64,000 nt of DNA from assembly GCF_002723995.1 (NCBI RefSeq), contig NZ_BEWP01000004.1:62001-126000 (forward strand), read 5' to 3'. The stretch comes from Gluconobacter kondonii (GTDB lineage: Bacteria > Pseudomonadota > Alphaproteobacteria > Acetobacterales > Acetobacteraceae). The notes under the pieces were generated by a model. That model searched no databases and was not told the DNA's origin. It was given only the letters and a program-made list of their open reading frames with translations. Position 1 is the stretch's first letter; the number at the start of each line of letters is the position of its first letter. The position numbers and the translations under genes are program-made. Below are positions 1,778 to 29,005 of the stretch, one piece after another.

Positions 1778-1779
1778 CA

Positions 1780-1817: not shown

Positions 1818-1829
1818 CATCTCTGGACC

Positions 1830-2899: not shown

Positions 2900-2941
2900 A
2901 GGTCAGTCATCCTCATTCCCCAGCATGATGCCCAAGATCGG

Positions 2942-2956: not shown

Positions 2957-3124
2957 TTGACGACGAATTTCACGCAGGCGGCGGACGGCACTCCCCAAAA
3001 CAGGCGATGCATATCGGTCGCCCACTCCCGAATCTGCGGCTCAGGCAACCATTTATTAAAGATTTCACGCCATCATGCCCCTCGCCGGCATTTTCCCGGT
3101 TCCTGCATGACGGAGACTGTCGCG

Positions 3125-3517: not shown

Positions 3518-3530
3518 AGGACGCTGACGG

Positions 3531-3938: not shown

Positions 3939-3943
3939 CCCAG

Positions 3944-4291: not shown

Positions 4292-4293
4292 CC

Positions 4294-4566: not shown

Positions 4567-4625
4567 GCTTGCCGCCCTTCAGACCCGGATTTGACTGACA
4601 TGCGTGCGCTCAAAGAAACCGTCCT

Positions 4626-5480: not shown

Positions 5481-5483
5481 ACC

Positions 5484-6560: not shown

Positions 6561-6648
6561 ATCAGACCATCTGTTTTGAAAAAATCTTCCTCCAAAGCCC
6601 CTCGTCCCCTTGGCGTTTGAGACCATAAACATGATATGCCTCTCAGAA

Positions 6649-6663
6649 GAACGTTTTGAGAAC
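6649..6663 (+). promoter_or_regulatory. SOS box (LexA operator) upstream of recA
   Basis: GAAC-GTTTTGA-GAAC fits the GAAC-N7-GAAC LexA operator described for alphaproteobacteria. It lies 101 bp before the recA ATG, in the only stretch available for the recA promoter. This predicts DNA-damage induction of recA by LexA; lexA itself is not in the window. Confidence 0.8.
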
Positions 6664-6764
6664 ACAGGAAGGCGGTTGTCGTAACTGAGACGACACTTTG
6701 CGAGAATGGCTACCCGGTCTATCGTGGTTTCCAAACGCCAGCCCGAACCTATTGCGAGGATTGA

Positions 6765-7802: not shown

Positions 7803-7806
7803 AACG

Positions 7807-7837
7807 AAAAAGGGCTCCCGTAACGGAGCCCTTTTTT
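7807..7837. terminator. Bidirectional intrinsic terminator after recA
   Basis: The stem GGGCTCC/GGAGCCC is extended by five A:T pairs (7807-7818 with 7825-7837), has a 6-base loop and ends in a run of six T. It lies between the convergent recA and ferritin-like genes and works on both strands. Confidence 0.92.
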
Positions 7838-7867
7838 ATGATCTGTCCTTCTGAGGAAGAGAAGCGT

Positions 7868-8842
7868 TCAGGCCGCAACCCGGTTACGAACCCGATCCCA
7901 GAGCTTCGCACCCTTGATAACGACGCGTGCAATCGCCGGGGTTGTCGTCGGCCGCAGCAGCCGCGGATCATAGCCTGCAAAACGACGGTCATTCTCATCC
8001 AGACAGAGCTGCATGAGGTCCGGAATCTTGACGTCCATGGCCGTCATGTCCTTGGCACCCGTGACGGTAAAATTGTTGTCCTGAGTGTGTTCTTCGCCAT
8101 TGTCGTCAATCGAGCGAGCCAGCCCCATGCGCTCATAGGCGAGGAACAGCCACACCCCGATCACACGCATCTCGAACCAAGGCCGCTTCCACACCGGCAT
8201 GGTCGCCCGATGCCAGGCCAGCCAGTTCGCAAACAACAGAATATGACGGCATTCTTCCTGCATTACCGGCTCGAACGTCTCGATCAGTTCCTGTGGAAAC
8301 AGACCGGCCCGCTCGGCGAGGGCAAAGAGTCCGAACGCAAAGAAGCTGTCCACACATTCCGAAAAACCCGTGACCAGATAGGCCCATTCCGTGTCTTTCG
8401 GCGTGATGTACGGAGGCTCCGGCGCCATCGGAATCTTGTAGGCCTCGACCAGCTTGGACAGGACTTCCTTGTGCCGGTTCTCTTCCCATGCATTCCGAGA
8501 AAGAGCGTCCTTCATGTCCGGATCGGTGATCATGTCCGCATAGGCGGCCATACGCAGGCGCGCCTTGCCCTCGGTCTGGACCGCAATATCCCAGATCGGC
8601 AGGGACGTGATGCGATGCAGCGTCTCCGGGTCCAGTTCAGGCCAGTCGATGACGGAGGGCTTGTACGGATTGAACGTATCGCGGAACATCGCAGCGACAG
8701 CCCGCTTGTGTTCTTCCGTACCGGGCTTGAGCGGGCCCTGGATCGGGCTGCTCCAATGGCGCGCTTCGTAATCAACGCGCTCTAGCGTCTTCTCCGACGG
8801 TGCGTCGGGAAGATGGGAATAGATTTCGGCCAGACTTTTCAT
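7868..8842 (-). CDS. Probable ferritin-like di-iron domain protein, function unknown
   Basis: 324 residues, no signal peptide. Two motifs of the E-x-x-H type are spaced as in di-iron four-helix bundles: ENRH (in NAWEENRHKE, about residue 121) and ECRH (in VMQEECRHILLF, about 208). Helical glutamates lie between them (FSECVDSFFAFGLFALAE). This suggests a carboxylate-bridged di-iron centre, either an oxidase/hydroxylase or an iron-binding protein. No closer family is recognised. It ends against the recA terminator and begins about 50 bp after the stop of the ClpP-like gene on the same strand, so the two may share a transcript. Confidence 0.6.
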   Translation of the reverse strand: MKSLAEIYSHLPDAPSEKTLERVDYEARHWSSPIQGPLKPGTEEHKRAVAAMFRDTFNPYKPSVIDWPELDPETLHRITSLPIWDIAVQTEGKARLRMAAYADMITDPDMKDALSRNAWEENRHKEVLSKLVEAYKIPMAPEPPYITPKDTEWAYLVTGFSECVDSFFAFGLFALAERAGLFPQELIETFEPVMQEECRHILLFANWLAWHRATMPVWKRPWFEMRVIGVWLFLAYERMGLARSIDDNGEEHTQDNNFTVTGAKDMTAMDVKIPDLMQLCLDENDRRFAGYDPRLLRPTTTPAIARVVIKGAKLWDRVRNRVAA

Positions 8843-8896
8843 GATGGTCTTCGCGGCGTGCCCGAAGACACGCCGTGCCCCTTGGAGCTTGTAGTT

Positions 8897-9574
8897 TTAC
8901 TTCAGATCGGTCGCGGAGTGGATGATACGGTTCACAAGCCCGTATTCAATCGCTTCCTGCGCCGACATCCAGTAGTTGCGGTCCGTATCCTTGGCGATCT
9001 TTTCGTAGGTCTGCCCGGTTTCTCTGGCGAAAAGACGGTTCAGACGCTCGCGCATCTTGATGATCTCGCGCGCCTCGATGTCGATATCCGTGGCCGGACC
9101 GCGCACCCCGCCCATCGGCTGATGCAGCAGAAAGCGCGTGTTCGGCAGGCAGACGCGCCGCTCAGGACGGCCAGCCGCATAGATCAGCGCGCCAGCGGAG
9201 GCGACCCAGCCGGTCCCGATCATGTTGATCGGCGCAATCGAATCCACGAAGCGGATCATGTCATGGATGGTGTCGCCACTCTCCACATGACCGCCCGGCG
9301 AGTTCACATAGACGTCGATCGGCTTGTCGGACGTTCCGGCCAGCGCCAGCAGACGACCGGTCACATCACGCGCGATCTTGTCGTTGATACCGCCGAAAAT
9401 CAGAACTTTCCGCTGATCGAACAGACGGCCTTCAAGCTCGCTGATCGGGCTGTTCAGCGTCTTGTTGTCTTCCTCGCGGGTTTCGCGCTCCGGAGCATCC
9501 GGCTCGTCATCCAGGCGGGTCGGGTTCATTCTGGTGATATCCATATCGTTTCCAGATCCAGCATGCATCTTCAT
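8897..9574 (-). CDS. ClpP-family serine protease paralogue with Asn at the catalytic Asp position
   Basis: About 225 residues from ATG 9574 (AGGA 8 bases upstream); a TTG at 9610 is possible but lies only 2 bases from its GGAGG. ClpP forms the barrel peptidase that works with ClpX or ClpA. The fold landmarks are present: [16 protein letters not shown], the serine in [11 protein letters not shown], and the histidine in FLLHQPMGG. Aligned by eye with E. coli ClpP, the third catalytic residue (Asp in ERDRFLS) falls on Asn here (DRNYWMS). Listeria ClpP1 has the same change and depends on a second ClpP. The 40-residue N-terminal extension is charged. It probably acts as a partner subunit, or as a low-activity protease. 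Confidence 0.9.
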
Positions 9575-9751
9575 AGCCCCTATCCTGCGCTTCGTTTTCG
9601 TCGGTGCCAAGTCCTCCTTCCACTTGGAGCGGACAGCACCACTCGCCTTCCCGGTTCCGAACCGCTAGTGTCCGCCATATTTCGATATTCCAAAGACGGC
9701 AGGAACGGCACAGTGGCCTCAGGAAAAAGCAGAGGGAACAGCAGGCAGCCC

Positions 9752-10747
9752 ATGACAGCGGCAACACGCAGAACTGCGGGAAAAATCCCGTTTCTTCTGC
9801 TGATGACCGCGCCACTTCTCTCGGCCTGCCAGCATCAGGACATGACCGACACCGTAACCGGCTGGTGGCACGGCTTTCAGGGCGGCGAAATCGCAAAACT
9901 GCGCGCCCCGCCACCGGGTGAAAATCTGGCCTACCCCCATGTCGGCCGGACCCCCACAGAAGCGCCGAACCTGCCGACCCCGGAGGCGCGCCTGTCGCTG
10001 ACGACCCGCCTTGAAGCGCAGCGCAACCTCGCCCAGCGCGAAAGTGCTGCTCAGGGCGCTCTGCCGACCATCCCGCCGCCACCCAAACCCACACCGGCCG
10101 CCGTAACGACCGCCAACGCCGAACAGAGCGGCATGACCATGACAACCGTTGGCCAGCCGGAGCCCGAAAGCCCGTCGGCCATCAATCCGCCCCCCGACAC
10201 CCCCTCCACGGCCTCTCCTGCGCCAGTTCAGGCACCGGCAAAGAAGCCCCCTGTTCAGGCACAGCCCCCCGCCCCAGAAGCCGAACTTCCTCCCGTGGTG
10301 GCCAAATCCATCCCGCCGACCCCTCCGGGCCAGTTTCCAAAAATCGGAGACCTCCCGCCCCCGCCGCCGCAGTTTCCGGGGTTCGACCTCCCGCGTGACG
10401 CCATGCTGAGCGATCCTGTCCAGCCGGATATCGACACCTCAACACCAGAAGGCACCCTGATCCGCTTTCAGCCCGCCACCGACCACGTCATGGGCAACCC
10501 TCAGGGCGATTACCAGCATATCGTCTCACAGCGCGGCAACCGTCCCCTGACCATCCGGGGCTTCGGCGCTTTCATGAGCGCGGATGCCGCTCTTGCCCCT
10601 GCGGATCAGAACCGCGAAATCGCCCTTGGCCTGCTTCGCGCCCGCGTGGTTGCGCGCGCGCTGATTGAACGTGGTGTTCCTGCCTCCTCCATCATCCTCA
10701 AGGCGGAAGCCATCGGCGACGGCGTGCGCGTCACGATCGGAGGCTAA
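9752..10747 (+). CDS. Proline-rich lipoprotein with OmpA-like C-terminus
   Basis: 331 residues from ATG 9752. The signal peptide ends in lipobox LLSAC (Cys about 27). A long Pro/Ala-rich linker (about 60-215, with runs such as PPPPP) follows. The C-terminal domain of about 100 residues has DQNREIALGLLRARVVARALIERGVPASSI, resembling the helix of OmpA/Pal-type peptidoglycan-binding domains. This architecture suggests an envelope anchor whose linker spans the periplasm. It stands alone between the divergent ClpP-like gene and the alaC promoter region. Exact binding partner unknown. Confidence 0.7.
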   Translation: MTAATRRTAGKIPFLLLMTAPLLSACQHQDMTDTVTGWWHGFQGGEIAKLRAPPPGENLAYPHVGRTPTEAPNLPTPEARLSLTTRLEAQRNLAQRESAAQGALPTIPPPPKPTPAAVTTANAEQSGMTMTTVGQPEPESPSAINPPPDTPSTASPAPVQAPAKKPPVQAQPPAPEAELPPVVAKSIPPTPPGQFPKIGDLPPPPPQFPGFDLPRDAMLSDPVQPDIDTSTPEGTLIRFQPATDHVMGNPQGDYQHIVSQRGNRPLTIRGFGAFMSADAALAPADQNREIALGLLRARVVARALIERGVPASSIILKAEAIGDGVRVTIGG

Positions 10748-10870
10748 CAGGGGGCTGAACCGAGAGGCCGAAAGACACATTGTGAGATCTGTCACAGTCA
10801 GACTGTTCCACTCCTGAAAAAACCTGTCTATCGTCGCCTCTCCCTTTCACCCTCTGCCCCAGAGCTGGTC

Positions 10871-12097
10871 ATGACCGAAGAGTTCCACCGCATCCGCCGC
10901 CTGCCGCCCTACGTGTTCGCTGAAGTGAACAAGGCCAAGGCCGCCGCGCGAGCCGCCGGTGACGACATCATCGATCTGGGCATGGGCAACCCCGACAGCG
11001 CACCGCCCGCGCATGTCGTGCAGAAGCTGATCGAAACGGTCGGCAATCCGCGCGCGCACGGCTATTCCGTCAGCCGCGGCATTCCGGGCTTACGCAAAGC
11101 CATGGCGAACTATTACGAGCGCCGCTTCAACGTCTCGCTGGACCCGGAAACCGAGGTCATCGCAACGCTCGGCTCCAAAGAAGGGCTGGCGAACCTCTCC
11201 GCCGCCATCACGAGCCCCGGCGATACGATCCTCGTCCCGAACCCGTCCTACCCGATCCACCAGTTCGGCTTCATCATCGCCGGAGCCTCCGTCCGCTCGA
11301 TCCCGGCCACACCGGACGAGGACATGCTCCGCGCTCTGGACCGCGCCGTCCGCCATTCCGTGCCCAAGCCCACGGCACTGATCGTCAACTTCCCGTCCAA
11401 TCCGACGGCTTTCGTCGCGAACCTTGATTTCTACAAGGAACTCGTGGCCTTCGCGCGTCGGGAAAACATCTGGATCCTGTCCGATCTGGCTTACGCGGAA
11501 ATCTATTTCAACGAGAACGAACCGCCGCCGTCCCTTCTCGCCGTTCCGGGCGCCAAGGACGTGGCCGTCGAGTTCACGTCCATGTCCAAGACCTACTCCA
11601 TGGCGGGCTGGCGCATGGGCTTTGCGGTCGGTAATCCGAAGCTGATCCAGGCCCTGACACGCATCAAGTCCTACTTGGATTACGGCGCCTTCACGCCCAT
11701 TCAGGTCGCCTCCGTCGCCGCGCTGAACGGCCCGCAGGACTACGTTTCGGAAATCCGTGCCATGTACAAAGACCGCCGGGATGTTCTCCTGCGTGGTCTT
11801 CAGAGTGCCGGATGGGACGTGCCCGTTCCCGCAGGCTCAATGTTCGCCTGGGCCCCTATCCCCCCTGCCTTCGCCGAAATGGGCAGCGTCGCCTTCTCCA
11901 AACTCCTACTCAAGGAAGCCGGGGTTGCGGTTGCACCCGGCCTTGGATTCGGGGAATACGGCGAGGGCTTTGTCCGGATCGGACTTGTCGAAAACACCCA
12001 GCGGCTGCGTCAGGCGACGCGGGCCATCAAGAGCTTCATGACCCGGCACGGCGCCGGGGCCGGAACCGCTGATCTTCTTGGAGCTGCATCATCGTGA
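10871..12097 (+). CDS. alaC: Alanine-forming class I/II aminotransferase (AlaC type)
   Basis: 408 residues. PLP-dependent fold type I enzyme. It has the DLGMGNPDS opening, GYSVSRGIPGLRKAMANYY, NPSYPIHQFG, the Asp-Tyr strand WILSDLAYAEIYF, and the Schiff-base lysine in SMSKTYSMAGWRMGF, followed by a C-terminal arginine in GFVRIGLV. These match the AlaC/YfdZ glutamate-pyruvate aminotransferases. First of four genes alaC-hom-glpX-recJ; its stop overlaps the GTG start of hom by 4 bases, so the two are coupled. Confidence 0.92.
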   Translation: MTEEFHRIRRLPPYVFAEVNKAKAAARAAGDDIIDLGMGNPDSAPPAHVVQKLIETVGNPRAHGYSVSRGIPGLRKAMANYYERRFNVSLDPETEVIATLGSKEGLANLSAAITSPGDTILVPNPSYPIHQFGFIIAGASVRSIPATPDEDMLRALDRAVRHSVPKPTALIVNFPSNPTAFVANLDFYKELVAFARRENIWILSDLAYAEIYFNENEPPPSLLAVPGAKDVAVEFTSMSKTYSMAGWRMGFAVGNPKLIQALTRIKSYLDYGAFTPIQVASVAALNGPQDYVSEIRAMYKDRRDVLLRGLQSAGWDVPVPAGSMFAWAPIPPAFAEMGSVAFSKLLLKEAGVAVAPGLGFGEYGEGFVRIGLVENTQRLRQATRAIKSFMTRHGAGAGTADLLGAASS

Positions 12098-13383
12098 AAC
12101 CACTGCGGATCGGACTGGCTGGACTCGGAACTGTCGGGATCGGTGTCATTCGTCTCCTGCGTGAGAACGCTGACCTGATTACCGCCCGGGCCGGTCGGCC
12201 GATCGAAGTCGTGGCCATCACGGCCCGAGACCGCACGCGCGACCGTGGCACCGACCTGTCCGCCATGCGCTGGCATGACAGCGCCACCGCCGTGGCGCAG
12301 GACCCGGAGATCGACGTGGCCGTCGAACTCATCGGCGGCTCCGAAGGTTCGGCGCATGACATGGTCCGCACCGCGCTCGAACGCGGCCTGCCGGTCGTGA
12401 CCGCCAACAAGGCGCTCGTAGCCCTGCATGGCGACAGCCTCAGCCGCCTGTCCGCGGAAAAGAACGCCCCCCTCCTGTTCGAGGCAGCTGTGGCAGGCGG
12501 CATCCCCGCCATCAAACTCGTGCGCGAAGGTCTGGCCGCAGATCGCCTCCTCAGCGTGGGTGGCATCCTGAACGGGACCTGCAACTACATCCTGACCGAA
12601 ATGCGCGCCACAGGCCGGGATTTCACGGACGTCCTGACCGAAGCACAGGCCAAGGGTTATGCTGAAGCCGAACCCTCCACGGACGTGGATGGCTGGGACA
12701 CCGCCCACAAGCTCGCCATTCTGGCTGGTCTGGCCTTCCGGCCCATCGCGTTCAAGACGCTCTCCGTTCAGGGCATCCGCGACATCACCGCGACAGATCT
12801 GAAATTCGCCGACGAACTCGGATACCGCATCAAGCTTCTCGGCATGGCCAGGCAGGCTGAAAACGGCAGTGTCGCAGCATGGGTCCGCCCCTGCCTCGTT
12901 CCCGCCAAAGCCCCCATCGCCGCCGTCGATGGTGTGTTCAACGCCGTCTCCACACAGGGAGTCTTCAGCGGTCCGATGACCATCTCCGGTCGTGGCGCGG
13001 GCGAAGGCCCGACCGCCAGCGCCGTCGTCGCCGATCTGATCGATCTGGCGCGGGGAACCGCCATTCCGGTGTGGGGCACAACCTCCGTTTCACCCGCTGC
13101 CGACTGCGCCAGTCTCGCTGATTTGAACAGCGCTTTCTATTTACGTCTAAACGTTCAGGACCGTCCGGGCGTAATGGCAGAGCTGACATCGGTTCTCCGG
13201 GACCACGATGTCTCCGTTCACTTTGTTTCCCAGCATGATGCTGCAACCGGATGCGCCGACCTGACAATCATCACCCATCAGGTTCCTGAAAAAGCCATTC
13301 ATGCAGCCGCAACAGCACTCGCCGTCCTTCCTGTCGTGACCGGAAAGCCGCTTGTGCTCAAAATCGAGGATCCCCTTGCGTGA
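12094..13383 (+). CDS. hom: Homoserine dehydrogenase
   Basis: 429 residues from GTG 12094. The N-terminal Rossmann motif GLAGLGTVGIGV is followed by VVTANKALVA, the catalytic-domain signatures GGIPAIKLVREGL and NGTCNYILTEM, and EPSTDVDGWDTAHKLAILA. A C-terminal ACT domain (about 350-425, VQDRPGVMAELTSVLRDHDVSV) would give threonine feedback. It reduces aspartate semialdehyde to homoserine for threonine, methionine and isoleucine synthesis. It overlaps both neighbours by 4 bases. Confidence 0.98.
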   Translation: MKPLRIGLAGLGTVGIGVIRLLRENADLITARAGRPIEVVAITARDRTRDRGTDLSAMRWHDSATAVAQDPEIDVAVELIGGSEGSAHDMVRTALERGLPVVTANKALVALHGDSLSRLSAEKNAPLLFEAAVAGGIPAIKLVREGLAADRLLSVGGILNGTCNYILTEMRATGRDFTDVLTEAQAKGYAEAEPSTDVDGWDTAHKLAILAGLAFRPIAFKTLSVQGIRDITATDLKFADELGYRIKLLGMARQAENGSVAAWVRPCLVPAKAPIAAVDGVFNAVSTQGVFSGPMTISGRGAGEGPTASAVVADLIDLARGTAIPVWGTTSVSPAADCASLADLNSAFYLRLNVQDRPGVMAELTSVLRDHDVSVHFVSQHDAATGCADLTIITHQVPEKAIHAAATALAVLPVVTGKPLVLKIEDPLA

Positions 13384-14381
13384 TCGACCCTCAGAACATC
13401 CCCCCCTATCGCGTCACTGACCGCAACCTTGCCCTTGAGCTCGTCCGCGTGACGGAAGCTGCCGCAATCGCTTCCGCACACTGGACCGGTCGCGGCCAGA
13501 AAAACGAGGCGGACGGCGCAGCCGTACAGGCCATGCGCGCCGCCTTCGACACCGTGGCCATCGACGGCATCGTCACCATCGGCGAAGGCGAGATGGACGA
13601 AGCCCCGATGCTTTATATCGGCGAGAAAGTCGGCTCCGGCGGACCGGCGATGGACATCGCGGTCGATCCGCTCGAAGGCACGAATCTCTGCGCCAAGAGC
13701 CTGCCCAACGCCCTGACAGTCGTGGCGCTGGCCGAACGCGGCAAGTTCCTCCACGCGCCTGACATCTACATGGAAAAGATCGTCGTCGGCCCGGACCTTC
13801 CGGAAGGCGTGGTGGATCTGGACGCCTCGATCGGCAACAATCTCCGCTCGCTGGCCAAGGCCAAGAAGCGCAACGTGTCGGACATGGTCCTGTGCGCGCT
13901 TGACCGTGAAAGACATGAAGAACTGATCGCCTACGCCCGCGAAGCTGGTGCCCGCGTCATGCTCCTCAGCGACGGCGACGTCGCAGCCGCCATCGCAACC
14001 TGCGTAGACGGCGGCGGTGTGGATCTGTACGCCGGTTCCGGTGGCGCTCCCGAAGGCGTTCTGGCCGCCGCAGCCATCCGCTGTATGGAAGGCCAGATGC
14101 AAGGTCGCCTCCTGTTCGAAGACGACACACAGCGTCAGCGCGCCCGCGAAATGGCGAACGGCCTCGACCCGGCCCGCAAGCTCTACCTGCACGATATGGC
14201 CGCCGGCAACGTCCTGTTCTCCGCAACAGGCGTCACATCCGGCCCGCTCCTGAAGGGCGTGGAACGTCCGAGCGCAACCCGTGCCCGCACGCATTCCATC
14301 GTGATGCGTTCAAAATCCCGCACGGTGCGCTATATAGAGAGCCATCACAGCTTCACACCACAGGCAGAACCCGCGTCCTGA
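13380..14381 (+). CDS. glpX: Class II fructose-1,6-bisphosphatase GlpX
   Basis: 333 residues from a GTG that overlaps the hom stop (GTGA). Motifs: HWTGRGQKNEADGAAV, the metal-site segment VTIGEGEMDEAPMLYIGE, and AVDPLEGTNLCAKSLPNAL, all characteristic of GlpX and absent from class I FBPases. It removes the 1-phosphate of fructose-1,6-bisphosphate; some class II enzymes also act on sedoheptulose-1,7-bisphosphate. The enzyme would serve gluconeogenic and pentose-cycle flux. recJ follows 10 bases later. Confidence 0.97.
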   Translation: MIDPQNIPPYRVTDRNLALELVRVTEAAAIASAHWTGRGQKNEADGAAVQAMRAAFDTVAIDGIVTIGEGEMDEAPMLYIGEKVGSGGPAMDIAVDPLEGTNLCAKSLPNALTVVALAERGKFLHAPDIYMEKIVVGPDLPEGVVDLDASIGNNLRSLAKAKKRNVSDMVLCALDRERHEELIAYAREAGARVMLLSDGDVAAAIATCVDGGGVDLYAGSGGAPEGVLAAAAIRCMEGQMQGRLLFEDDTQRQRAREMANGLDPARKLYLHDMAAGNVLFSATGVTSGPLLKGVERPSATRARTHSIVMRSKSRTVRYIESHHSFTPQAEPAS

Positions 14382-14391
14382 ACGGAGAACC

Positions 14392-16191
14392 ATGCTCGCA
14401 GACGATACGGGCGCCGTCCTCGGCGTAACCCGAAGTGCAGGAAACCGCCGCTGGATCTGGCGCGATCCCAGACTGGCGGAAGCAGACAACCGGCTGGCTC
14501 TTGCTCTCGCCCAGCAGGCCAATATTCCTGAGCTTCTGGCCCGTATCCTCTCGGCACGAGGCGTCGCACCCCACGACGCCTCTTCGTTTCTCAATCCCCG
14601 CCTGCGCGACGCCATGCCCGACCCCTCCTGCCTGCAGGACATGGACCGGGCCGCCGAACGCCTCGCACAGGCCGTCCGCAACCGCGAGCATGTTGGCCTG
14701 TTTGGCGACTACGACGTAGACGGCGCCTGCGGCACAGCCCTCGTCTGCGACACGCTGCGCGAACTCGGCTGCACCGTCAGCACCCATATCCCCGACCGCC
14801 TGACCGAAGGCTACGGCCCCAACACCGCAGCTCTCGAAAACCTGCTGTCACAAGGTGCGACCCTGCTTGTCTGCATCGACTGCGGCACGGCTGCGATCGA
14901 TATCCTCAACGGCCTGACAGACCGTGCCGACATCATCGTTCTCGATCACCACAAACCCGACGGAGCCGCCCTGCCGAAAGGCATCGTGGTCAACCCAAAC
15001 CGGCTGGACTGTGCGTCGGGCCTGAACAACATCTGCGCCACGGCCGTCGCATTCCTCACCATGGTCGCCACAATCCGCCTCCTACGCCGCACCAACTGGT
15101 TCGACGACGGGCAGGCCATCCCCGACCTGCTCCAGCGCCTCGACCTCACGGCCCTTGCCACCATCTGCGATGTCATGCCCTTGACCGGCCTGAACCGCGC
15201 TCTTGTCATGCAGGGCCTGCGCGTCATGTCGCGTGGAGAGCGCCTCGGACTGGCCACACTCTCCTCCGTCGCAGGCGTGAAGGAAGAAGCCAGCGCCATG
15301 GCTTGCGGCTTTGCCCTCGGCCCTCGCATCAATGCCGGAGGCCGCATCGCACAGGCGGATCTTGGTCTGAAACTTCTGTTATCCGAAGATGTCGTCGAAG
15401 CCCGCGCCCTCGCCGAACAACTCGACCGCGTCAACCGCCAGCGCCAGACCGTCGAATCCACAATCCTCGACTCCGCCATGGAACAGGCCCAGCAGCAGCT
15501 TGATGCAGGCCATGCCGTCATCTTCCTGCATGGTGAAAACTGGCACCCCGGTGTCGTCGGCATCGTCGCTGGGCGCCTGAAAGAACGCTACAACCGCCCA
15601 GCTCTGGTCGCCGCCCTGACCGATGGCGTCATCAAAGGTTCGGCCCGCTCGGTTCCCGGACTGGACCTCGGAACCGCCATCATCGCCGCCCGACAGAACG
15701 GTCTCCTCCTCACAGGCGGCGGACACGCCATGGCCGCCGGGTTCTCCCTTGCCGCAGAGCGGGCCGAGGAGTTTCACGCCGCCCTGAACGCACAGCTCTC
15801 CACCGCGCTGGCGTTGCCCAAACAGGACGCGCTGAAACTCGACGGCATCATGACACTGGCCGGAGCGTCCATTGCCGTGGCCGATCAGCTCGCGCGACTG
15901 GAACCTTTTGGCCCCGGCAATGAAGAACCGGTCCTCGCCATCAGCAATGTCCGCTGCGTCAAAAGCGAACGGATCGGCAAGGATGGCAACACGCTCCGCG
16001 TCATCCTTCAGGGCGAGGACGGAAACACCCGCCTGCGGGGTCTGGTCTTCCGTGCAGGCGACAAACCCTTCGCCCCCCTGCTGGAAGACCGCTCCATGCC
16101 ACTGCTCCACATCGCGGGCACATTACGCGCTGAAACATGGCAGGAGCGAAAAAATCTATCTTTTTTCATTTCCGACGCAACAGCCGCTTGA
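14392..16191 (+). CDS. recJ: Single-strand DNA exonuclease RecJ
   Basis: 599 residues. DHH-family nuclease: FGDYDVDGACGTA (about 104-116), CIDCG, VLDHHKPDG (the DHH motif), FALGPRINAGGRIAQADLGL, and the DHHA1-domain signature LTGGGHAMAAGFSL. An OB-like C-terminal domain follows. RecJ degrades single-stranded DNA 5' to 3' in recombination and repair. It is the last gene of the alaC-hom-glpX-recJ run and ends 41 bases before the tRNA. Confidence 0.97.
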   Translation: MLADDTGAVLGVTRSAGNRRWIWRDPRLAEADNRLALALAQQANIPELLARILSARGVAPHDASSFLNPRLRDAMPDPSCLQDMDRAAERLAQAVRNREHVGLFGDYDVDGACGTALVCDTLRELGCTVSTHIPDRLTEGYGPNTAALENLLSQGATLLVCIDCGTAAIDILNGLTDRADIIVLDHHKPDGAALPKGIVVNPNRLDCASGLNNICATAVAFLTMVATIRLLRRTNWFDDGQAIPDLLQRLDLTALATICDVMPLTGLNRALVMQGLRVMSRGERLGLATLSSVAGVKEEASAMACGFALGPRINAGGRIAQADLGLKLLLSEDVVEARALAEQLDRVNRQRQTVESTILDSAMEQAQQQLDAGHAVIFLHGENWHPGVVGIVAGRLKERYNRPALVAALTDGVIKGSARSVPGLDLGTAIIAARQNGLLLTGGGHAMAAGFSLAAERAEEFHAALNAQLSTALALPKQDALKLDGIMTLAGASIAVADQLARLEPFGPGNEEPVLAISNVRCVKSERIGKDGNTLRVILQGEDGNTRLRGLVFRAGDKPFAPLLEDRSMPLLHIAGTLRAETWQERKNLSFFISDATAA

Positions 16192-16232: not shown

Positions 16233-16308
16233 GTCCCGTTCGTCTAGAGGCCTAGGACACTGCCCTTTCACGGCGGCAACACGGGTTCGAATCCCGTACG
16301 GGACACCA
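16233..16308 (+). tRNA. tRNA-Glu (anticodon UUC)
   Basis: A full cloverleaf reads from sequence. The acceptor stem GTCCCGT pairs with ACGGGAC and the CCA end is encoded (16306-16308). The anticodon stem CTGCC/GGCGG encloses loop CTTTCAC with TTC at 16267-16269, and the T arm is ACGGGTTCGAATCCCGT. Length 76 nt. It lies just after recJ and is followed by a weak hairpin. Confidence 0.98.
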
Positions 16309-16423: not shown

Positions 16424-16445
16424 ATAGATCACTCAACTGATCTAT
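16424..16445 (-). terminator. Probable terminator at the end of the nag operon
   Basis: A perfect 8-bp stem (ATAGATCA/TGATCTAT) with a 6-base loop overlaps the nagB stop codon. On the minus strand it is followed by a short imperfect T-rich tract (TTTAGTTTTTG). The stem is AT-rich, so termination may be incomplete. Confidence 0.5.
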
Positions 16446-17185
16446 CCTTGATGGCAACGCCAGATCCGGGCCGCGGCTTCGTCCAAAATGACTGTCACAT
16501 CGTCATGAAGACGGATCGCCGTGGCACTGACAGCCTCGTTAATCGGACCGTTCAGCGCCTCGTCAACGATCGCCGCCTTGCCCTCACCAACAGCCACCAG
16601 CAGAAGACGGCGCGCTTCCAAGATCGTCCCCACACCCATCGTCAGAGCGCGTTCCGGCACACGCTCCGGATCATCGCCAAACATGCCGCTGTTCTGACGT
16701 CGCGTCACATCATCCAGATGGACAACCCGCGTCCGGCTGTCGAACGCGGAGGGCGGCTCGTTGAAACCGATATGCCCCGTCTCGCCAATGCCCAGAAGCT
16801 GCAACCCGAGGCCGCCAGCCGCGCGAATGGCGGCCTCATAGCGCGCGCACTCAGCCTCCAGATCCACAGCAACACCATTCGGAACATGCCCCTGCCCTGC
16901 GGGCATGTTCACATGCGAAAACAGATGCTCCTGCATGTAATGGCTGTAGGAATTCGGGTCCGTCGGCGGCAGGCCAACATATTCGTCCAGATTGAACGAC
17001 GTCGTGCCGGAAAAATCCAGCGTCCCCGCGTCATGTTGCTGCACCAGAAGCTGGTAAATGCTCTCCATCGTGCGGCCCGTCGCCAATCCCAAAACGGGCG
17101 CCCCAAATCCGCGGATTTCCTCCGCAATCATGTCTGCCGCGGGCTGAAACGCCTGACCGGGCGTGTCCGTAACGATGATTTTCAT
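16442..17185 (-). CDS. nagB: Glucosamine-6-phosphate deaminase
   Basis: 247 residues, typical NagB size. LGLATGRTMESIY is the phosphate loop; FNLDEYVGLPPTDPNSY holds the proton-transfer Asp; GIGETGHIGFNEP holds the His and Glu of the ring-opening triad; GVGTILEA follows. The enzyme converts glucosamine-6-phosphate to fructose-6-phosphate and ammonia. At the position of E. coli Asp141 (GNDGH) this protein has Thr (GETGH), which may affect allostery or rate. Its start overlaps the nagA stop by 4 bases. Last gene of the GlcNAc operon. Confidence 0.95.
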   Translation of the reverse strand: MKIIVTDTPGQAFQPAADMIAEEIRGFGAPVLGLATGRTMESIYQLLVQQHDAGTLDFSGTTSFNLDEYVGLPPTDPNSYSHYMQEHLFSHVNMPAGQGHVPNGVAVDLEAECARYEAAIRAAGGLGLQLLGIGETGHIGFNEPPSAFDSRTRVVHLDDVTRRQNSGMFGDDPERVPERALTMGVGTILEARRLLLVAVGEGKAAIVDEALNGPINEAVSATAIRLHDDVTVILDEAAARIWRCHQG

Positions 17186-18291
17186 ACCCTGCGCTCTCCA
17201 TTGACCCAGACTTCGCTGACCTGAAACCTGTCATCCAGAACCGTGAAATCCGCCAGAAGATCCGGCGCAATCGTCCCCCGGTCCTGCAATCCGAGATAAG
17301 CGGCGGCATTTGTACTGACAAGACGCGCCGCCTTCGGGAGCGACATTCCGGCATCAAGGGCATTCCGCAACGCCTGATCCAGCGTCAGAATGCTCCCCGC
17401 AAGCGTGCCATCCGGCAGCCGAACCACGCCATTACGGATCATCACGTCCTGCCCGCCAAGCTGGCTCGGACCATCAGCCTCACCCGTACCCCGCATGGCG
17501 TCCGTCACGAACAGCAGCCGCTGCCCCATCATCCGCTCCGCCAGCCGGAAACTGGCAGGATGAACATGATGCGTATCGAAGATCATTTCCCCATACGCCA
17601 CATCACTGCACATCAGCGCCGTCACCGGACCGGGACGCCGCCCCTCAATCGCCGACATGGCATTGAACAGATGCGTCCCTCCGACGGTTCCCCCGGCCGC
17701 ACAAACCAGACAGATCGCCCGTTCGGCACCCTCAAAATCCGTGGTGGTATGCCCCAGACTGACCCGGACACCCGCCTGCGCAAAAGCCTTCATGGCCGTC
17801 GGCGCGTGTTCCAGCTCCGGCGCGATCGTCACGACACGCACACACCCGGTCGCAACAGCTTCCACCACCCGCTCGGCGGTCGGCTCGATATTGAACGGCG
17901 GCTGGGCCCCCAGCTTGTGCGGACTGACAAAAGGCCCTTCCAGATGCGCGCCATGAATGCGCGGCCCACCCTCTACACCCCGATCACAGACTTCCGCCAC
18001 CGCCCGCAACGCGTCCATAACCTCCGCCCAGGGCGCGGTGATCGTCGTCGGCAGGATCGTCGTGGTTCCGTGGCCCAGATGAAAGCGCGAGAGCGTCTCA
18101 ATGGCCGCAACCCCGTCCATCGTATCGGCCCCGCCGCCACCATGAACATGACCATCAATAAAGCCCGGCAGAATATAGCGCTCCGGCACTCCGGACTGAG
18201 GCACAATCTCGCGGATATGGCTGTCAAAATCCACCCGCCCCGAAACAATGCGATCGCGCAGGACGATCCTGCCCTCAAGATGCGCCATCAT
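17182..18291 (-). CDS. nagA: N-acetylglucosamine-6-phosphate deacetylase
   Basis: 369 residues. Amidohydrolase fold: GFIDGHVHGGGG (metal-site His-x-His), GAHLEGPFVSPHKLGAQP (metal Glu), SLGHTTTDFEGAERA, GGTHLFNAMSAIEGRRPGP, FVTDAMRGTG (catalytic Asp) and GSILTLDQALRNAL. It removes acetate from GlcNAc-6-phosphate to give the NagB substrate. It is coupled by 4-base overlaps to the MFS gene upstream and nagB downstream. Confidence 0.97.
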   Translation of the reverse strand: MMAHLEGRIVLRDRIVSGRVDFDSHIREIVPQSGVPERYILPGFIDGHVHGGGGADTMDGVAAIETLSRFHLGHGTTTILPTTITAPWAEVMDALRAVAEVCDRGVEGGPRIHGAHLEGPFVSPHKLGAQPPFNIEPTAERVVEAVATGCVRVVTIAPELEHAPTAMKAFAQAGVRVSLGHTTTDFEGAERAICLVCAAGGTVGGTHLFNAMSAIEGRRPGPVTALMCSDVAYGEMIFDTHHVHPASFRLAERMMGQRLLFVTDAMRGTGEADGPSQLGGQDVMIRNGVVRLPDGTLAGSILTLDQALRNALDAGMSLPKAARLVSTNAAAYLGLQDRGTIAPDLLADFTVLDDRFQVSEVWVNGERRV

Positions 18292-19577
18292 GGCTCCTGA
18301 TCCAGTGGTAAAAGCCCAGTCCGACCATAACGCCGGGCATAGAGCAGCAAGGCCAGATAAGACGGCAGAACCAGCAGCGCAAACATGCCCTGAAAGCCCA
18401 CGAACGGCTTGAGAATGACGTAAATCTGCGGAATGATTGCCCCGCCACTATACGCCATGACCAACAGGGCGGATGCGAGCGGCGTCCACGCCCCGCCCCC
18501 CCGAATGGCGATGGGGAAAATCGAGGGCATCAGCATGGCATTGGCCGCCCCCAGCAACGCCACACACAGAACCGAAACATAGCCCTGCGTCAGAAACGCC
18601 GCGACCGTCAGCCCCGCGCCCAGAAAACAGGCTAGTTCCATGAGCCGCTCCTGCGTCACAATCCGCGGCACGACCAGAAACCCGAGGATATATCCCCCCA
18701 GCATTCCGGCCAGCGTCAGGGACGTGAAAAAGCGTGTCTGGCTCAGCGGCAGGCCAAAACCCTGCCCATAGGTCCCAATGGCGTCCCCGGCCATGACTTC
18801 CACGCCGACATACAGGAACATCACGACAATCCCGAACACCAGATGCGGCCGGAAAATACGCCGGCTCCCCTCCAGAGGCCCCGGCAGCGCAGGCGCCTGC
18901 AAATCCGGCAGCGGACAGAGCGCCACGCCGATGGCCGTCAGCAACAGAACAACAGCCATCGTCATGTAAGGCGCATAAATCGCCTGCACGAACCCCGACA
19001 GAAGTGCATTGCGCGCCACAGGGTCCGTCGTCTCCTGCGCCCGCTGGGACAGCGTCCCAATATCCCCCATCACCACAGTCGCCAGAACGATCGGGGCCAG
19101 AATTCCCGCGCATTTGTTACACACGCCCATAATGGCAATGCGCTGCGAGGCCCGTTCGGACGGCCCCAGCAGACTGACCAGCGGGTTAATCACCACCTGC
19201 ATCAGAGACAGCCCGGCCCCCATCACCAGCAACCCGGTCAGGGCACCCCCGTAAAGACGCATGGCAATAAACTGTCCAAACAGCGCCACGCCCGCCGCAC
19301 ACAACACGAGCGAAACAGCCAGCCCCCGCCGCAGACCAAGCCTCCGGGCCACGAAAGACGCAGGCAGGGAAAACAGGAAATACGAAAAATAGAACACCAT
19401 CGGCACGAGAAAGGCGCTCGTATCGCTCAAATCAAACGCCACACGCACGAACGAAATCAGCGGACCGTTCATCTAGGTCACAAAACCCATGATGAAGAAA
19501 ATCGCCGCAGCCACACCCAGAGGCGCCAGTCCATAATCCCCGGTCAGCCCCCTGCCGGACTGGACAGGCGCCGTCAC
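18288..19577 (-). pseudogene. MFS sugar (GlcNAc/glucose-type) permease interrupted by in-frame TAG
   Basis: The full frame runs from GTG 19575-19577, overlapping the kinase stop (GTGA), and gives 34 residues ending IFFIMGFVT. A TAG at 19473-19475 follows, and the same frame then continues uninterrupted for 394 residues beginning MNGPLISFVRVAFDLSDT. In the FucP/GluP sugar-symporter family this spot reads WxNGPLI, so TGG (Trp) has become TAG within membrane helix 1. The rest shows 11 or so helices, no frameshift and normal codon use. An ATG directly after TAG could restart translation but would lack half of helix 1. The tight 4-base overlaps mean the stop may also reduce nagA and nagB translation. 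Could be a recent pseudogene or a suppressed codon. Confidence 0.85.
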
Positions 19578-20560
19578 GACGTCAGCCCCGCATCGCGGAG
19601 TGCAACGGACACGCGCTCAATCCACGCATCATCCACGTCCCACCCGGCCAGACGCGCAGCATTGAGCAGCCCCCCTCCGACCGGCGGAAGGCGCGGCGGC
19701 ACAGGCGCACCATAGCGCAGGGCAATGCTTTCCCGAAGAAACCGGCTCTGGAACGTTCCCCCCGCATAACTCCACGGCAGCGATGTTTCGGGAAAATGGC
19801 GCTGGGCGGCCTCGATATGGGCGCAGAGATGATCCGCCGCCTCACGCATCAGCCGCCGGGCCGGTTCCAGTCCGCCCTCGGCCAGATCCGAAACAATCCG
19901 CGCCAGAGCCGCAACACTGGCCCTCGGATGACGCAGCGTCCCATACCATTCCAGAAGCGCCGTCCCACACGCCGCTTTTTCAGTCGGAAGGCCCATCGCC
20001 GCCACGAACGGCGCGAAAAACGCATGATCCGCCTGATTGCGTCCATCCAGAAGCGCCGTCAGCAGCGCCAGCGCCTGACGCCCGATCCAGAACCCACTGC
20101 CCTCGTCCCCGAACAATCCGCCCCAGCCGCCAATCTTGACCTGGCCGTCCCGGCCATCCGTAGCCCATGCCACCGACCCCGTGCCTGACAAAACCAGAAC
20201 CCCCGCCTCCCCCGCGAAAGCCCCGGTACAGGCCATTTCCACATCGCTGCAGATGTTGAAGGGCCCCGCAAAGGCGTTTTCCACAACCTCGCTCTGTTCA
20301 CGCCCCAGAACCCGCGTCTCCTCATACCCTGCAAGCCCCAGAGACAGCGCAGCCGTCGTGGAGGGAAGTTGCCCCAGCAAAGACTGCAACACATCCTGCC
20401 ATCCGGCCTGATCAAACGGATTGGATCCTGCCCCCCGAAGCACAGGCCCCAGCGATCCGTCCCTGCCCACAACAGCCAGAAGCGTCTTGGTCCCCCCGCC
20501 GTCTATGGCGGCAATGCGGGGCTGATGAAGGGGCGTTAGGACCGGAGAAGAGACTGTCAT
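19574..20560 (-). CDS. BadF/BadG-family ATPase, probable N-acetylglucosamine kinase
   Basis: 328 residues from ATG 20560; 16 extra codons upstream are open but look non-coding. Sugar-kinase ATPase fold: AIDGGGTKTLLAVV (phosphate 1), SLGLAGY, the Asp loop in ICSDVEMACTGAF, VLVLSGTGSVAWA (phosphate 2), and IGGWGGLFGDEGSGFWIGRQAL, which is specific to the BadF/GlcNAc kinase group. Located first in an operon with a permease, nagA and nagB, it most likely phosphorylates GlcNAc to GlcNAc-6-phosphate. It diverges from a TonB receptor. Confidence 0.9.
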   Translation of the reverse strand: MTVSSPVLTPLHQPRIAAIDGGGTKTLLAVVGRDGSLGPVLRGAGSNPFDQAGWQDVLQSLLGQLPSTTAALSLGLAGYEETRVLGREQSEVVENAFAGPFNICSDVEMACTGAFAGEAGVLVLSGTGSVAWATDGRDGQVKIGGWGGLFGDEGSGFWIGRQALALLTALLDGRNQADHAFFAPFVAAMGLPTEKAACGTALLEWYGTLRHPRASVAALARIVSDLAEGGLEPARRLMREAADHLCAHIEAAQRHFPETSLPWSYAGGTFQSRFLRESIALRYGAPVPPRLPPVGGGLLNAARLAGWDVDDAWIERVSVALRDAGLTS

Positions 20561-20840: not shown

Positions 20841-23075
20841 ATGCACCCCAGCAGATATAGCAAATACTATACCATGATCAGTTTACTATCGTGCCGGAAA
20901 TGCTTCCGGACCTGCGGTTTGATGGCCGTCAGCCTGACCCTCATCGGCACAGGTTTCGCCAACGACACCCCATCCAGACACAAATCCCGGACCGTCAAAA
21001 AAGCCGATCCTGCGAAAAAAACCGCCCCTTCCGAACACATCAGCGTCGTCGGGCATCTCAACAACGAACGCGCGCGCATTTTTCCCGGTCTCGGCGCCGT
21101 GGACTACACCATCGACCAGCGCCAGATCACCACCACCCCTGGCGGCCAGAACGCGGCCTTCAGCCAGATCCTCCTCCGCGTCCCCGGCGTCGTTCTCGAC
21201 AGCTATGGGGAAGTCCATGTCCGCGGCGAACATGGCGGCCTGACCTATCGCGTCAACGGCGTTCTGCTGCCGGAAGGGCTGAACGGTTTCGGACAGGAAC
21301 TCGACACCCGCATCATCCAGTCCGTAGACCTGCTGACCGGCACGCTGCCCGCCCAGTTCGGCTTCCGCACCGCAGGCGTGGTGGACGTCACAACCAAGAC
21401 CGGCGACAGCCTCAAACACAACCAGGTCTCGCTGTATGGCGGGAGCTACAACACCTTCGTCCCGTCCATGCAGTTTGGCGGCCAGCACGGCAAGCTGGAC
21501 TATTTCACCACCCTGTCCTTCACTCGCAACAATATCGGCATCGAAAACCCGAGCAACACGTTCCGCGCCATCCATGACGTGACCGAACAGGAAAAAGCCT
21601 TCGCGTATCTGTCCTACCATCTCGACGACGCAAGCCGGATCACGCTGCTGACGAGCGCCTCCTACGCGGATTTCGAAATCCCCAACTCGTTCAAGACATT
21701 CGACACAACCAGCCCGGACTACACGACCCTGTACAACGTCGCGGGCGTCAATTCGCATGACCCGTCCCTGAACTGGGCCAATCTGAACGACAGCCAGACC
21801 GAACAAAACTACTACGCCGTGCTGTCCTATCAGCGCACGACCGAAAAGCTGAACCTTCAGGTCTCACCCTATTTCCGCTACGGCCGGATCGACTACACCC
21901 CCGACCGTGACCGCGACCTGATCTATCAGGGCGTCTCGGAACATGAAGTCAACGACTTCACGACCGGCGGCATGCAGGCCGATCTGTCCTACGACATCGC
22001 CCCTCATCACACGCTGCGGGCCGGTCTTCTGGGGCAGTACACGTCCGAACGGCTGGACACCGATACGCTGGCTTTCCCCGTGGACGACGCCGGAAACCAG
22101 ACATCCGACATCGCAAAACGCATGATCGACAATACCGGAAACTGGTCCGTCGAAGCGGGCGCCTATATTCAGGATGAGTACAAGATCACCCATAACCTAA
22201 CCTTCAATTACGGCATCCGCTACGACCGTTTCGCCTCGTCTTTCGACACTGAAGGACAATTAAGCCCACGCGCGAACATGGTCTGGAAACCCACCCGCAC
22301 CACAACGCTGCATCTTGGCTATTCGCGCTATTTCGCCCCGCCGTCCCCGCAATATGTCTACCCGTCCACGCTCGCGCGCTTTGCGGGCACCACCAACGCG
22401 GCCGCGAACACGATCAACAACGCCACGAAAGTCGAGAAATCGAATTACGTCGATGGCGGGATCCTCCAGCGCATCACACCCGAATTCCAGATCACGCTCG
22501 ACGCCTACGCCAAATGGGCGCATGACCTCACCGATCTCGGACAGTTCGGCCGCGCGGTCATCCTCGCCCCCTTCAGCTACAAACGCGGCCGTGTCTATGG
22601 CGCGGAATTCGGCAGTTCATGGCGGCACGGACCCTGGTCGATGTACGGCAATTTTTCCTACGTCAAAACTTCGGCCCAGGACATCAATTCGGCGCAGTAC
22701 CAGTTCGATCTGGTTGAACTCGCCTATATCCGCAACCACGCGATCCAGCTCGACCATCAGGGCGAATTCACCGCCACCGCAGGCGCATCCTGGACCACGA
22801 AACACGACATGGCCTATGTCGATTTCGTCTATGGCTACGGCCTGCGCAGCGGCTTCGCCAATCTGGAAAAAGAGCCGCAATACGACGTCTTCAACATCGG
22901 CTACCAGCATACCTTCACGAAGGTCCCGTTCGGACATGACATCAAAATTCGCGCGGACGTCATGAACCTGTTCGACAAACGCTACCAGCTCCGCAACGGC
23001 AGCGGCGTCGGCATCTATCAGGCCCAATACGGCCAGCGGCGCGGCACGTTTTTCTCAGTCGTTTCGGAGTTCTGA
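20841..23075 (+). CDS. TonB-dependent outer-membrane receptor
   Basis: 744 residues; the start could also be at 20874 or 20922 since none has a good ribosome binding site. A signal-like segment (LMAVSLTLIGTGFAN) is followed by the plug domain (ILLRVPGVVLDSYGEVHVRGEHGG, RVNGVLLPEGLNGFGQ, LLTGTLPAQFGFRTAGVVDVTTK). A 22-strand-type barrel comes next and ends in an aromatic residue (VVSEF). It imports a ligand across the outer membrane using TonB energy. It is clearly related to the receptor at 37552-39858. Divergence from the GlcNAc operon hints at a chitooligosaccharide or aminosugar ligand, but this is inference. Confidence 0.9.
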   Translation: MHPSRYSKYYTMISLLSCRKCFRTCGLMAVSLTLIGTGFANDTPSRHKSRTVKKADPAKKTAPSEHISVVGHLNNERARIFPGLGAVDYTIDQRQITTTPGGQNAAFSQILLRVPGVVLDSYGEVHVRGEHGGLTYRVNGVLLPEGLNGFGQELDTRIIQSVDLLTGTLPAQFGFRTAGVVDVTTKTGDSLKHNQVSLYGGSYNTFVPSMQFGGQHGKLDYFTTLSFTRNNIGIENPSNTFRAIHDVTEQEKAFAYLSYHLDDASRITLLTSASYADFEIPNSFKTFDTTSPDYTTLYNVAGVNSHDPSLNWANLNDSQTEQNYYAVLSYQRTTEKLNLQVSPYFRYGRIDYTPDRDRDLIYQGVSEHEVNDFTTGGMQADLSYDIAPHHTLRAGLLGQYTSERLDTDTLAFPVDDAGNQTSDIAKRMIDNTGNWSVEAGAYIQDEYKITHNLTFNYGIRYDRFASSFDTEGQLSPRANMVWKPTRTTTLHLGYSRYFAPPSPQYVYPSTLARFAGTTNAAANTINNATKVEKSNYVDGGILQRITPEFQITLDAYAKWAHDLTDLGQFGRAVILAPFSYKRGRVYGAEFGSSWRHGPWSMYGNFSYVKTSAQDINSAQYQFDLVELAYIRNHAIQLDHQGEFTATAGASWTTKHDMAYVDFVYGYGLRSGFANLEKEPQYDVFNIGYQHTFTKVPFGHDIKIRADVMNLFDKRYQLRNGSGVGIYQAQYGQRRGTFFSVVSEF

Positions 23076-25630: not shown

Positions 25631-25787
25631 GGCATCCTCGCGAAACGGGGCGATAACGGGAGTCGATACCCTACAGAACGCTGATCCCTCGATATGGCGA
25701 AAGATGGGCCGTCAGATGTGAAATTTTTTAGACTTTCCCCGAGACGATTATCGGAGGTTTCCCCCCGACAGAAACCAGAAAAACACC

Positions 25788-26579: not shown

Positions 26580-27052
26580 CGCATTCCATTTTCCAAAAGA
26601 GTGGACACACGCCCACATCCAGTCTCCCAGCATGCCCGACCCATACGTCACGGTGAAGATGCGAAAGGTTGATACTTTTTATTATAGGAACAGAATCTTC
26701 AAACAGAAATCATGAAAAAATAAACTATAAGGAAAATCCAGAAATATGAAACATAAATTCCAAATAACACAATGCATTAATAATATTAATCAGCTTATTT
26801 CCGTAGATTTTTAGACGAATTTTATCGAAATTCATCCTGATTTTTTCTTCCCTCAACTCGGATCAACATTCCCACCTTTAAAAAAGACTTCACGATTCCG
26901 TGATATTTTCAGACTCCCTCCGAAAATATTGTCATTTTTCCGCGCATCTCTGCGGTTTCCGGGCTTCTACCATTCCTCTGAAAATATTTTTAAGAGCTAT
27001 CGGGCCCGTGTTCATGCACATGTTCGTGACATCTTTTGACACGGGGGATTAC
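26580..27052. other. AT-rich intergenic region before the broken porin
   Basis: About 470 bp without a recognisable gene. Its middle (26660-26990) is far more AT-rich than the flanks and contains a palindrome-like ATTAATAATATTAAT. On the minus strand, TATAAT at 26681-26686 is a probable -10 for the amidase gene. The right end leads into the porin start; a GGGGGA lies 5 bases before TTG 27053. Confidence 0.5.
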
Positions 27053-29005
27053 TTGATTCTGCTCACCTTTCACATGCTGCGGTCCCTGCGTTATTCGGGA
27101 CGCACATCCCTGTTTCTTGGAACGGCTCTAGGCGCACTCGCACTGAGCACACAGGCGCGGGCCGACGACGATATCGTTTCAAAAATGGAACAGGAAATGA
27201 GCCGCCTTCAGGCCGCTCAGGCTCATGTGCAGGAAGAGCAGCGCGCCATCAATCACGACATGGCCATCCTGAAAGCAGAAATCGCCCGACACCACGCCTC
27301 AGGCACATCCCCGATCCACGCGAACTCTCCTCATGCCGAACAGATCGCTACACAGGAAAACCATTCCGAAAACATAACCACCGCATCCATCCGTCGTCAC
27401 GGAAACAAAACGACTGAATCCCCTGAAACCATCAGTGCTGAGCGTGGAATGACAACAACGTCTGCTTCGGCACCGCTGCATGGTGCTCACACACGACGCG
27501 ATAGGGTGTCTCTCTCACCAACCGGACGCGACCTGATCGACACCGACAAGGGATCGGAACTCGCCGTCGTGGGCCATCGCGCCGAAGACGTTCTGGTTCA
27601 TTTCGCATAAAACGACGTTGGGCCCCATCCGCGTGAAACGCTTGGCGCACAGGCCGCAGGTGCGATTGGCGATCACGGGGTTTTCCATCTCGGTCCCGTC
27701 ACGCTCATCCTGGGTGGCTTCGTCGATACCGCCGCCGTACTCGAAAACCGCCATATCGCCTCGGACACGTTCAATTACTGGCAGGACATGCCGTATCCGA
27801 ACGAGCCGCGCTATCACACCAACAATTTCACGGGCGGCGCGCGTTACAGCCGCCTGTCACTGCTGGCACGCGGCAATATTGATTCGGAATCAACAATTTC
27901 CGGCTTCTTTGAATCCGATTTCGGCGCAGGTGCGGTCACGACCGATCCTTACGAAAGCAACAGCTATTCCTTCCGGCTGCGTCAGGCCTATCTCGCCTAT
28001 GACAACAACACGGAAGGCTGGCATTTTCTCGGCGGTCAGGCCTGGAGCCTCCTGACGCCGGGCCGTGCGGGCATCGTCGCGCGGCAGGAAAGTCTTCCGG
28101 AAACCATTGAGGCGTCCATGCTCGCAGGCTAGACATGGTCCCGGCAATGGCAGGTCCGCATCGTGAAGGATTTCTTCCATCACCGCCTCTGGACCGGCCT
28201 TTCCATCGAAAACCCCGCTACGCTGTATGATACGACAGGCTTTTCAAACACGAACGGCGCTGTCGCGATGCCCAATGGCTCGACCATCACGATCGGCGAG
28301 AACGGCGTCGGTCTGACCAATGATACGACCAATTTTTCCAACGAAATCGCCCCGGATGTCATTGGCAAGGTCGCTTACGATCCCGTTTGGGGCCACTACG
28401 AAATGGAAGGCATCCTGCACTTCCCCCATGACCGCGTAACCATGGGCCATACCGGCCATAACAACACCGCTGTCGGCGGAGGTGCTGGTGGTTCCATGAT
28501 CCTGCCCCTCATCCCCGGCAAACTAGAACTGCGTATGGCTGGCCTTGCGGGCTGGGGCATCAACCGCTACGGCTCTGTTATGCTCCCCGACGCCACGCTC
28601 AAGGCCAATGGCAGCCCTGATCCACTCTTCGGCGTTCAGGCGCAGGCGGGCATCATCGCGCACCCCAATCCGCGCATTGATGTGTACGGATACTTCGGCA
28701 CTCAGCGCGTCGGCCATTCCTATTTCAACGAAAACGGCGGGTCTTACGGCTACGGTAACCCCGCCTACTCCAACGCTGGCTGTCTTCAGGAACTCTCCAC
28801 CCTGTCCTGCACGGCCAACACGCGCGGCGTGTCCGAAGTCACAATTGGCGGCTGGTGGCGCTTCTTCAAGGGCAAGTTCGGAACTGTCGAGGCGGGCACA
28901 CAGCTTGCCTATTCCCGACGTCAGATCTGGTCCGGCATCGGTGGCGATCCGCATACCAGCATGAGCCAGATCTTCTTCGACTTCCGCTACCTGCCCTTCC
29001 AGTAA
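27053..29005 (+). pseudogene. Outer-membrane porin with two in-frame stop codons
   Basis: One reading frame runs from TTG 27053 (GGGGGA 5 bases upstream; ATG 27074 also possible) to 29005. It is cut by TAA at 27608-27610 and TAG at 28130-28132, with no frameshift. Part 1 has a signal peptide (ALALSTQARA) and a coiled-coil start (MEQEMSRLQAAQAHVQEEQR). Part 2 resumes directly after TAA and reaches HLGPVTLILGGFVDTAAVLE and FRLRQAYLAYDN, which are barrel strands. Part 3 after TAG reads TWSRQWQVRIVKDFF and continues to the C-terminal strand IFFDFRYLPFQ. Coiled coil plus barrel is a common acetic acid bacterial porin plan. Both stops are one C-to-T change from Gln codons. Residues 85-205 are low-complexity and less certain. 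Confidence 0.85.

Follow-up and report, generated by a model that had tools for sequence, protein, structure and literature searches.

The closest described counterparts of the locus studied here are the GlcNAc pathways of Shewanella oneidensis (NagP, SO3503, GGP family) and of Xanthomonas and Stenotrophomonas, in which an MFS permease of the NagP type likewise acts with a cytoplasmic kinase, NagA and NagB. In S. oneidensis, a nagP deletion strain is reported not to grow on GlcNAc, and the GGP permeases of Shewanella are commonly partnered by outer-membrane transporters of the TonB type (PMC2996990); an auxiliary permease, NagF, is described in Stenotrophomonas (PMC13055268). Further relatives are the gluP glucose/galactose MFS transporters (TIGR01272) and FucP (PDB 3o7q), a structural relative.

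In the window, i.e., the whole stretch of 64,000 nucleotides of Gluconobacter kondonii DNA analyzed here, a nag operon lies on the minus strand in the order nagK-nagP-nagA-nagB. The features are listed below.

19574..20560, minus strand: intact kinase resembling NagK, of the BadF/BadG family; overlaps the permease frame by 4 bases
18288..19577, minus strand: frame of a nagP-type sugar permease; opens with GTG and has 429 codons, a terminal TGA and one internal TAG
19473..19475, minus strand: in-frame TAG, permease codon 35
18288..19472, minus strand: open part 3' of the TAG, 394 codons; its first codon, ATG, abuts the stop (TAGATG)
17182..18291, minus strand: nagA, GlcNAc-6-phosphate deacetylase, intact
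16442..17185, minus strand: nagB, glucosamine-6-phosphate deaminase, intact
20841..23075, plus strand: TonB-dependent receptor, divergent from the nag operon; candidate outer-membrane partner

The initial annotation had described a frame that is open from GTG, interrupted by TAG and then open for 394 codons. We re-read the minus strand and found exactly this arrangement: GTG at 19577-19575, 34 sense codons ending in IFFIMGFVT, TAG at 19475-19473, and 394 codons from ATG 19472 to TGA 18290-18288. The 4-base overlaps claimed for the remaining operon joints were likewise present at nagK/nagP (19574-19577), nagP/nagA (18288-18291) and nagA/nagB (17182-17185). The TonB receptor adjoins the nag operon in the three nearest species too (L033-L035). 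Another nag cluster lies on contig C25 (L032; 19,220 bases) of the same draft genome and includes an intact permease of 427 codons that is 83% identical to that of the window over the 394-residue part. When aligned with FucP through this paralogue, the TAG corresponds to Asn43 and so lies three residues ahead of Asp46. In FucP, Asp46 is the putative proton site; this column holds Gly in the C25 paralogue. The alignment thus places the stop inside the first membrane helix, as had been proposed.

The 394-residue part scored 55.8 bits with MFS_1 (cut-off 33.4) and 238.1 bits with TIGR01272, the gluP subfamily (curated cut-off 202.55); the C25 paralogue scored 243.8 bits with the latter. With the NagP equivalog NF046060, which has a cut-off of 625, the two reached 216.2 and 247.5 bits, respectively. 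With the C25 paralogue as the query, two PDB sequences matched at E up to 1, and both were FucP (best E 5.5e-32). We took DUF5009 (PF16401) to be a possible model for such permeases; it had no match in the organism's own genome. Meanwhile, the window nagA and nagB scored above the cut-offs of TIGR00221 (236.9 vs. 225.65 bits) and TIGR00502 (265.5 vs. 236.9 bits), and the kinase exceeded the cut-off of PF01869, the BadF/BadG family, while reaching 63.6 of the 370 bits set for the NagK equivalog NF046058. In contrast to NagP (SO3503), therefore, the window permease lies far under the NagP equivalog cut-off and its frame is interrupted; it belongs to the gluP family by score, and it is the operon context that suggests GlcNAc as its substrate and a NagP-like role.

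We used the 394-residue part as the query against 80 genomes, the organism's own included, and 32 of the 80 had a match at E 0.001 or less. Loci were obtained for the best match in most of the matching genomes, and the stop column was read at 31 loci, the window included. TAG was found in the window only. Each of the 28 homologues with at least 49% identity (L002-L029; 27 from other genomes plus L002, the paralogue in the own genome) has TGG at this column, as expected from the claim that the family has Trp here and that one base has changed; two distant paralogues have GTC (L030, 29% identity) and AGC (L031, 26%). The frame is unbroken, and the protein 98-99% identical, in each of the three Gluconobacter species nearest to the window, which are G. 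cadivus LMG 1744, G. cerevisiae LMG 27748 and G. albidus NBRC 3250. The initial annotation had called for this comparison and had named as evidence against its reading any relatives that begin at the position of ATG 19472. None does so: the upstream segment FFxxGFVTW is present in 28/28 homologues and ATG follows the stop column in only 10/28, indicating that ATG 19472 is not a conserved start, and we rejected it as the true start of the gene. As in a pseudogene, the inactivating change is absent from the relatives, every one of the 28 having a sense codon.

To date the stop, we counted singleton codon changes on the window branch, comparing the permease and nagK with the three nearest species and nagA and nagB with two. 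The permease has 14 such changes, namely 13 synonymous, 0 missense and 1 nonsense. The corresponding counts are 16 synonymous changes and 5 replacements in nagK, 15 and 2 in nagA, and 14 and 4 in nagB. With a missense-to-synonymous opportunity of 2.29, approximately 30 missense changes would be expected in the permease on a fully neutral branch; the neutral fraction of the branch is at most approximately 4-7% (95% bound, assuming an earlier dN/dS of 0.03-0.06). Zero missense changes are unremarkable if constraint acted throughout the branch (P 0.17-0.41). That is, no relaxed constraint is visible after the stop, implying that the stop is very young, that it is a base error, or that the downstream product is still under selection.

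The second cluster bears on what the stop means for the cell. On C25, the permease and nagB (247 codons) are intact, nagA retains just two stretches, residues 1-138 and about 309-367, and nagK is an open 159-codon remnant according to ORF reading and tblastn. The window nagA is the sole full copy found in the own genome, and the C25 nagB is a second copy of that gene. The last 10 residues of the nagK remnant match the end of the G. morbifer SIS gene at 8/10 positions, and in G. morbifer this gene sits between nagK and nagP. Since the remnant ends with residues resembling the C-terminal end of SIS, the protein sequence may point to a single deletion that fused the two genes; DNA comparison of the remnant and the SIS end returned short chance-like matches only, so the fusion was not confirmed at that level. 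The DNA upstream of the remnant is IS-like, with one promoter-like site where 0.7 would be expected by chance. The dN/dS of the C25 permease against G. morbifer is 0.085, a value from a long branch on which a recent loss would not show.

Family scans of C25 identified a GH20 hexosaminidase, a TonB receptor, a ROK regulator, a family-5 solute-binding protein, an M81 peptidase and CutC; a ROK kinase came nearest to GlcNAc kinase models, under their cut-offs. ABC permeases and ATPases beside the scanned genes were named by reading. The island at 801-15240 looks like one for chitobiose or cell-wall sugar scavenging. Its gene order (ROK kinase, TonB receptor, GH20, nagB, nagA, nagP) is shared with the nag island of G. 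morbifer (G008, L040), with identities of 83% for the ROK kinase, 90% for the TonB receptor, 79% for GH20, 80% for nagB and 85% for nagP; G. morbifer has full-length copies of nagA, the SIS gene and nagK, whereas their C25 counterparts are deleted or truncated. The C25-type GH20 has an 80% match in 1/25 genus relatives, the other 24 giving best matches at 46-55%. In the permease tree, C25 branches outside a nine-row clade (96/90) to which the window, G. roseus and G. oxydans belong, indicating that it is not a recent duplicate. G. morbifer lies one fork deeper than C25 (85/70) and the two do not pair; a G. morbifer-like source of the C25 permease is thus not supported. Sequences near the two ends of C25 match transposase genes of the IS6 and IS3 types that are plasmid-borne. 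In the plasmid collection, 17 records matched C25, each over 1-2% of the contig, and none matched the window operon. Taken from these comparisons, C25 is probably an island imported from another Gluconobacter lineage. The assembly is a draft in 63 contigs for which 2.3% contamination is estimated; in principle, therefore, C25 might be foreign DNA rather than part of the genome.

The window locus thus keeps nagK, nagA and nagB with a stopped permease, and C25 keeps the permease and nagB with nagK and nagA lost. The initial annotation had concluded that the GlcNAc pathway would lose its carrier. At the level of the genome this does not hold, provided that the intact C25 permease, which lies beside an intact nagB, is expressed; we therefore rejected the loss of all GlcNAc-type carriers.

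Across the genus, a permease at 49% identity or more is present in 23/25 relatives, with none in G003 and G005. Window-type nagK was matched in 20/26 and a near full-length nagA-like match was found in 25/26 genus genomes, the own genome included in both counts. Three of the 25 relatives (G002, G008 and G015) have extra broken nagP pieces together with an intact nagP elsewhere, and on this basis the decay of redundant nagP copies appears to be recurrent in the genus. The broken pieces (L037 16976-17334, L042 6295-6866 and L043 4519-4890) adjoin nagA, nagB or nagK. In G. albidus, G. aidae and G. roseus, nagA-nagB lies on a different contig from nagK-nagP. In G. oxydans NBRC 14819 (L039 5167-5797), nagB is read in two frames covering residues 1-123 and about 155-243, apparently owing to a frameshift or deletion.

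The permease is not the only interrupted gene of the window. When compared with G. cadivus, 20 of 45 ORFs were matched, two of them distantly, leaving 18 colinear ORFs, four of which have in-frame stops relative to that species. The plus-strand gene at 27008-29005 contains two, TAA at 27608 and TAG at 28130, and its G. cadivus counterpart is a single 665-codon ORF (L107:15278-17275, minus strand) whose intact 665-residue product matched no Pfam family. The TGA codons at 44190 and 25714 were dropped, as we judged them to lie in over-extended or shadow reading frames. At 25732-25787 the colinearity with G. cadivus is interrupted, that species having approximately 20.6 kb of other DNA there (L107-L109); it stops once more at 16458, where nagB ends, close to tRNA-Glu 16233-16308.

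We next weighed whether the stop is bypassed. The initial annotation had allowed that it may be read through, and insertion of an amino acid at the amber codon would yield the full-length permease. The constraint on the downstream frame agrees with this, as does the rarity of TAG as a terminator in the window (3/48 greedy ORFs of 120 codons or more). However, TAG is conserved in 0/28 homologues, and we rejected conserved readthrough on this evidence. None of the 42 typed RF00005 tRNA matches has a CUA anticodon, and a suppressor tRNA is rejected among these 42, a set that is incomplete and lacks at least tRNA-Ile(GAU). PylS reached 26.5 bits against a cut-off of 178.15, so we rejected a Pyl system; in control scans, 13/14 genomes gave PylS matches, 12 under the cut-off and one over it. 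Compared with shuffled sequences, the RNA surrounding the stop shows no unusual folding (z -0.74), which speaks against a structured readthrough element. Moreover, the presence of TAA as well as TAG in the gene at 27008-29005 favors ordinary decay over an amber-specific code. An excess of in-frame stops in G. oxydans was reported to trace to one transposon-linked, TAA-rich cluster, by a method described there as blind to readthrough confined to one species (PMC1914089). We regard readthrough as extremely improbable. Restarting at TAGATG is a different matter, as TAG and ATG follow one another without a gap: ribosomes that terminate could reinitiate, giving a partly functional 394-residue permease and keeping nagA and nagB translationally coupled. 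The lack of missense changes is in line with such a product, and the 4-base overlap at the nagA start suggests coupling to upstream translation. Nevertheless, the beginning of helix 1 would be missing from the product, no Shine-Dalgarno-like run was seen by eye in the 30 bases before the ATG, and the ATG occurs in just the 10 homologues mentioned above, none of which needs it as a start. A restart may also aid nagA and nagB without giving a working carrier. Reinitiation to a partly working permease therefore seems quite improbable to us, and we consider it highly improbable that TAGATG has become a working joint that preserves the coupling of nagA and nagB and whose truncated permease is active or has taken a new role beside the intact C25 permease.

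Two further explanations leave the stop without a bypass. If the TAG were a base-calling or assembly error or a mutation acquired in culture, the gene would be intact in the wild strain; 13 synonymous changes against no missense change would be seen in that case as well, and the genome is a draft. No second isolate of the species was found in collections from which records close to the window's genome may be missing. Counting against an error, well covered contigs seldom contain isolated substitution errors. Furthermore, the two stops in the gene at 27008-29005 indicate that gene loss does occur in this region, and mixing of the two permease copies would not produce TAG, since the paralogue has TGG at the site. 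We give this explanation a minor but real chance. It is also conceivable that the whole GlcNAc pathway is being lost, so that neither permease matters and the complementary pattern is a coincidence. In several relatives the nag genes are fragmentary or distributed over more than one contig, damage to the C25 cluster is heavy and another window gene is broken, all of which would fit. Yet the changes in the window nagA and nagK look constrained, a nagA-like gene persists in nearly the whole genus, and, nagB aside, each locus retains what the other has lost. We find such a general loss distinctly unlikely.

We consider it probable that the TAG is genuine and arose very recently, inactivating the native nagP-type permease, and that this loss is tolerated because of the C25 paralogue, although the absence of missense changes weakens this explanation in that it also fits a base error or a product under selection. 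According to this preferred explanation, ribosomes coupled from nagK would start at GTG 19577 and halt after 34 residues inside the first helix; with translation ending there, the window gene would yield no working carrier. The second cluster, probably acquired from another lineage, would supply an intact permease and nagB, and its intact permease would make the loss tolerable. This explanation presumes that the C25 permease is expressed and transports the same sugar, and that its presence accounts for the tolerance. Both loci have kept nagB and otherwise decayed in a complementary manner, and between them one full set of kinase, permease, deacetylase and deaminase is encoded. The observation of the initial annotation is thus confirmed, and its interpretation is partly supported.

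In kind, the finding is ordinary. A young pseudogene covered by a paralogue, probably after horizontal transfer, likewise shows one inactivating change in a constrained gene; here, in contrast to the typical case, two operons have lost different members and one set is spread over both. Mosaic pathways arising from transfer and erosion are reported in ant-gut Acetobacteraceae (PMC6558740). The complementary damage of two operons is the memorable part: it offers a small, clean case of early gene loss, in which a carrier is lost by a single codon and a second, damaged operon encodes one. A single window can suggest a dead pathway although the whole genome completes it and, if confirmed, the present case would mean that gene gain and decay can re-partition one pathway over two loci.
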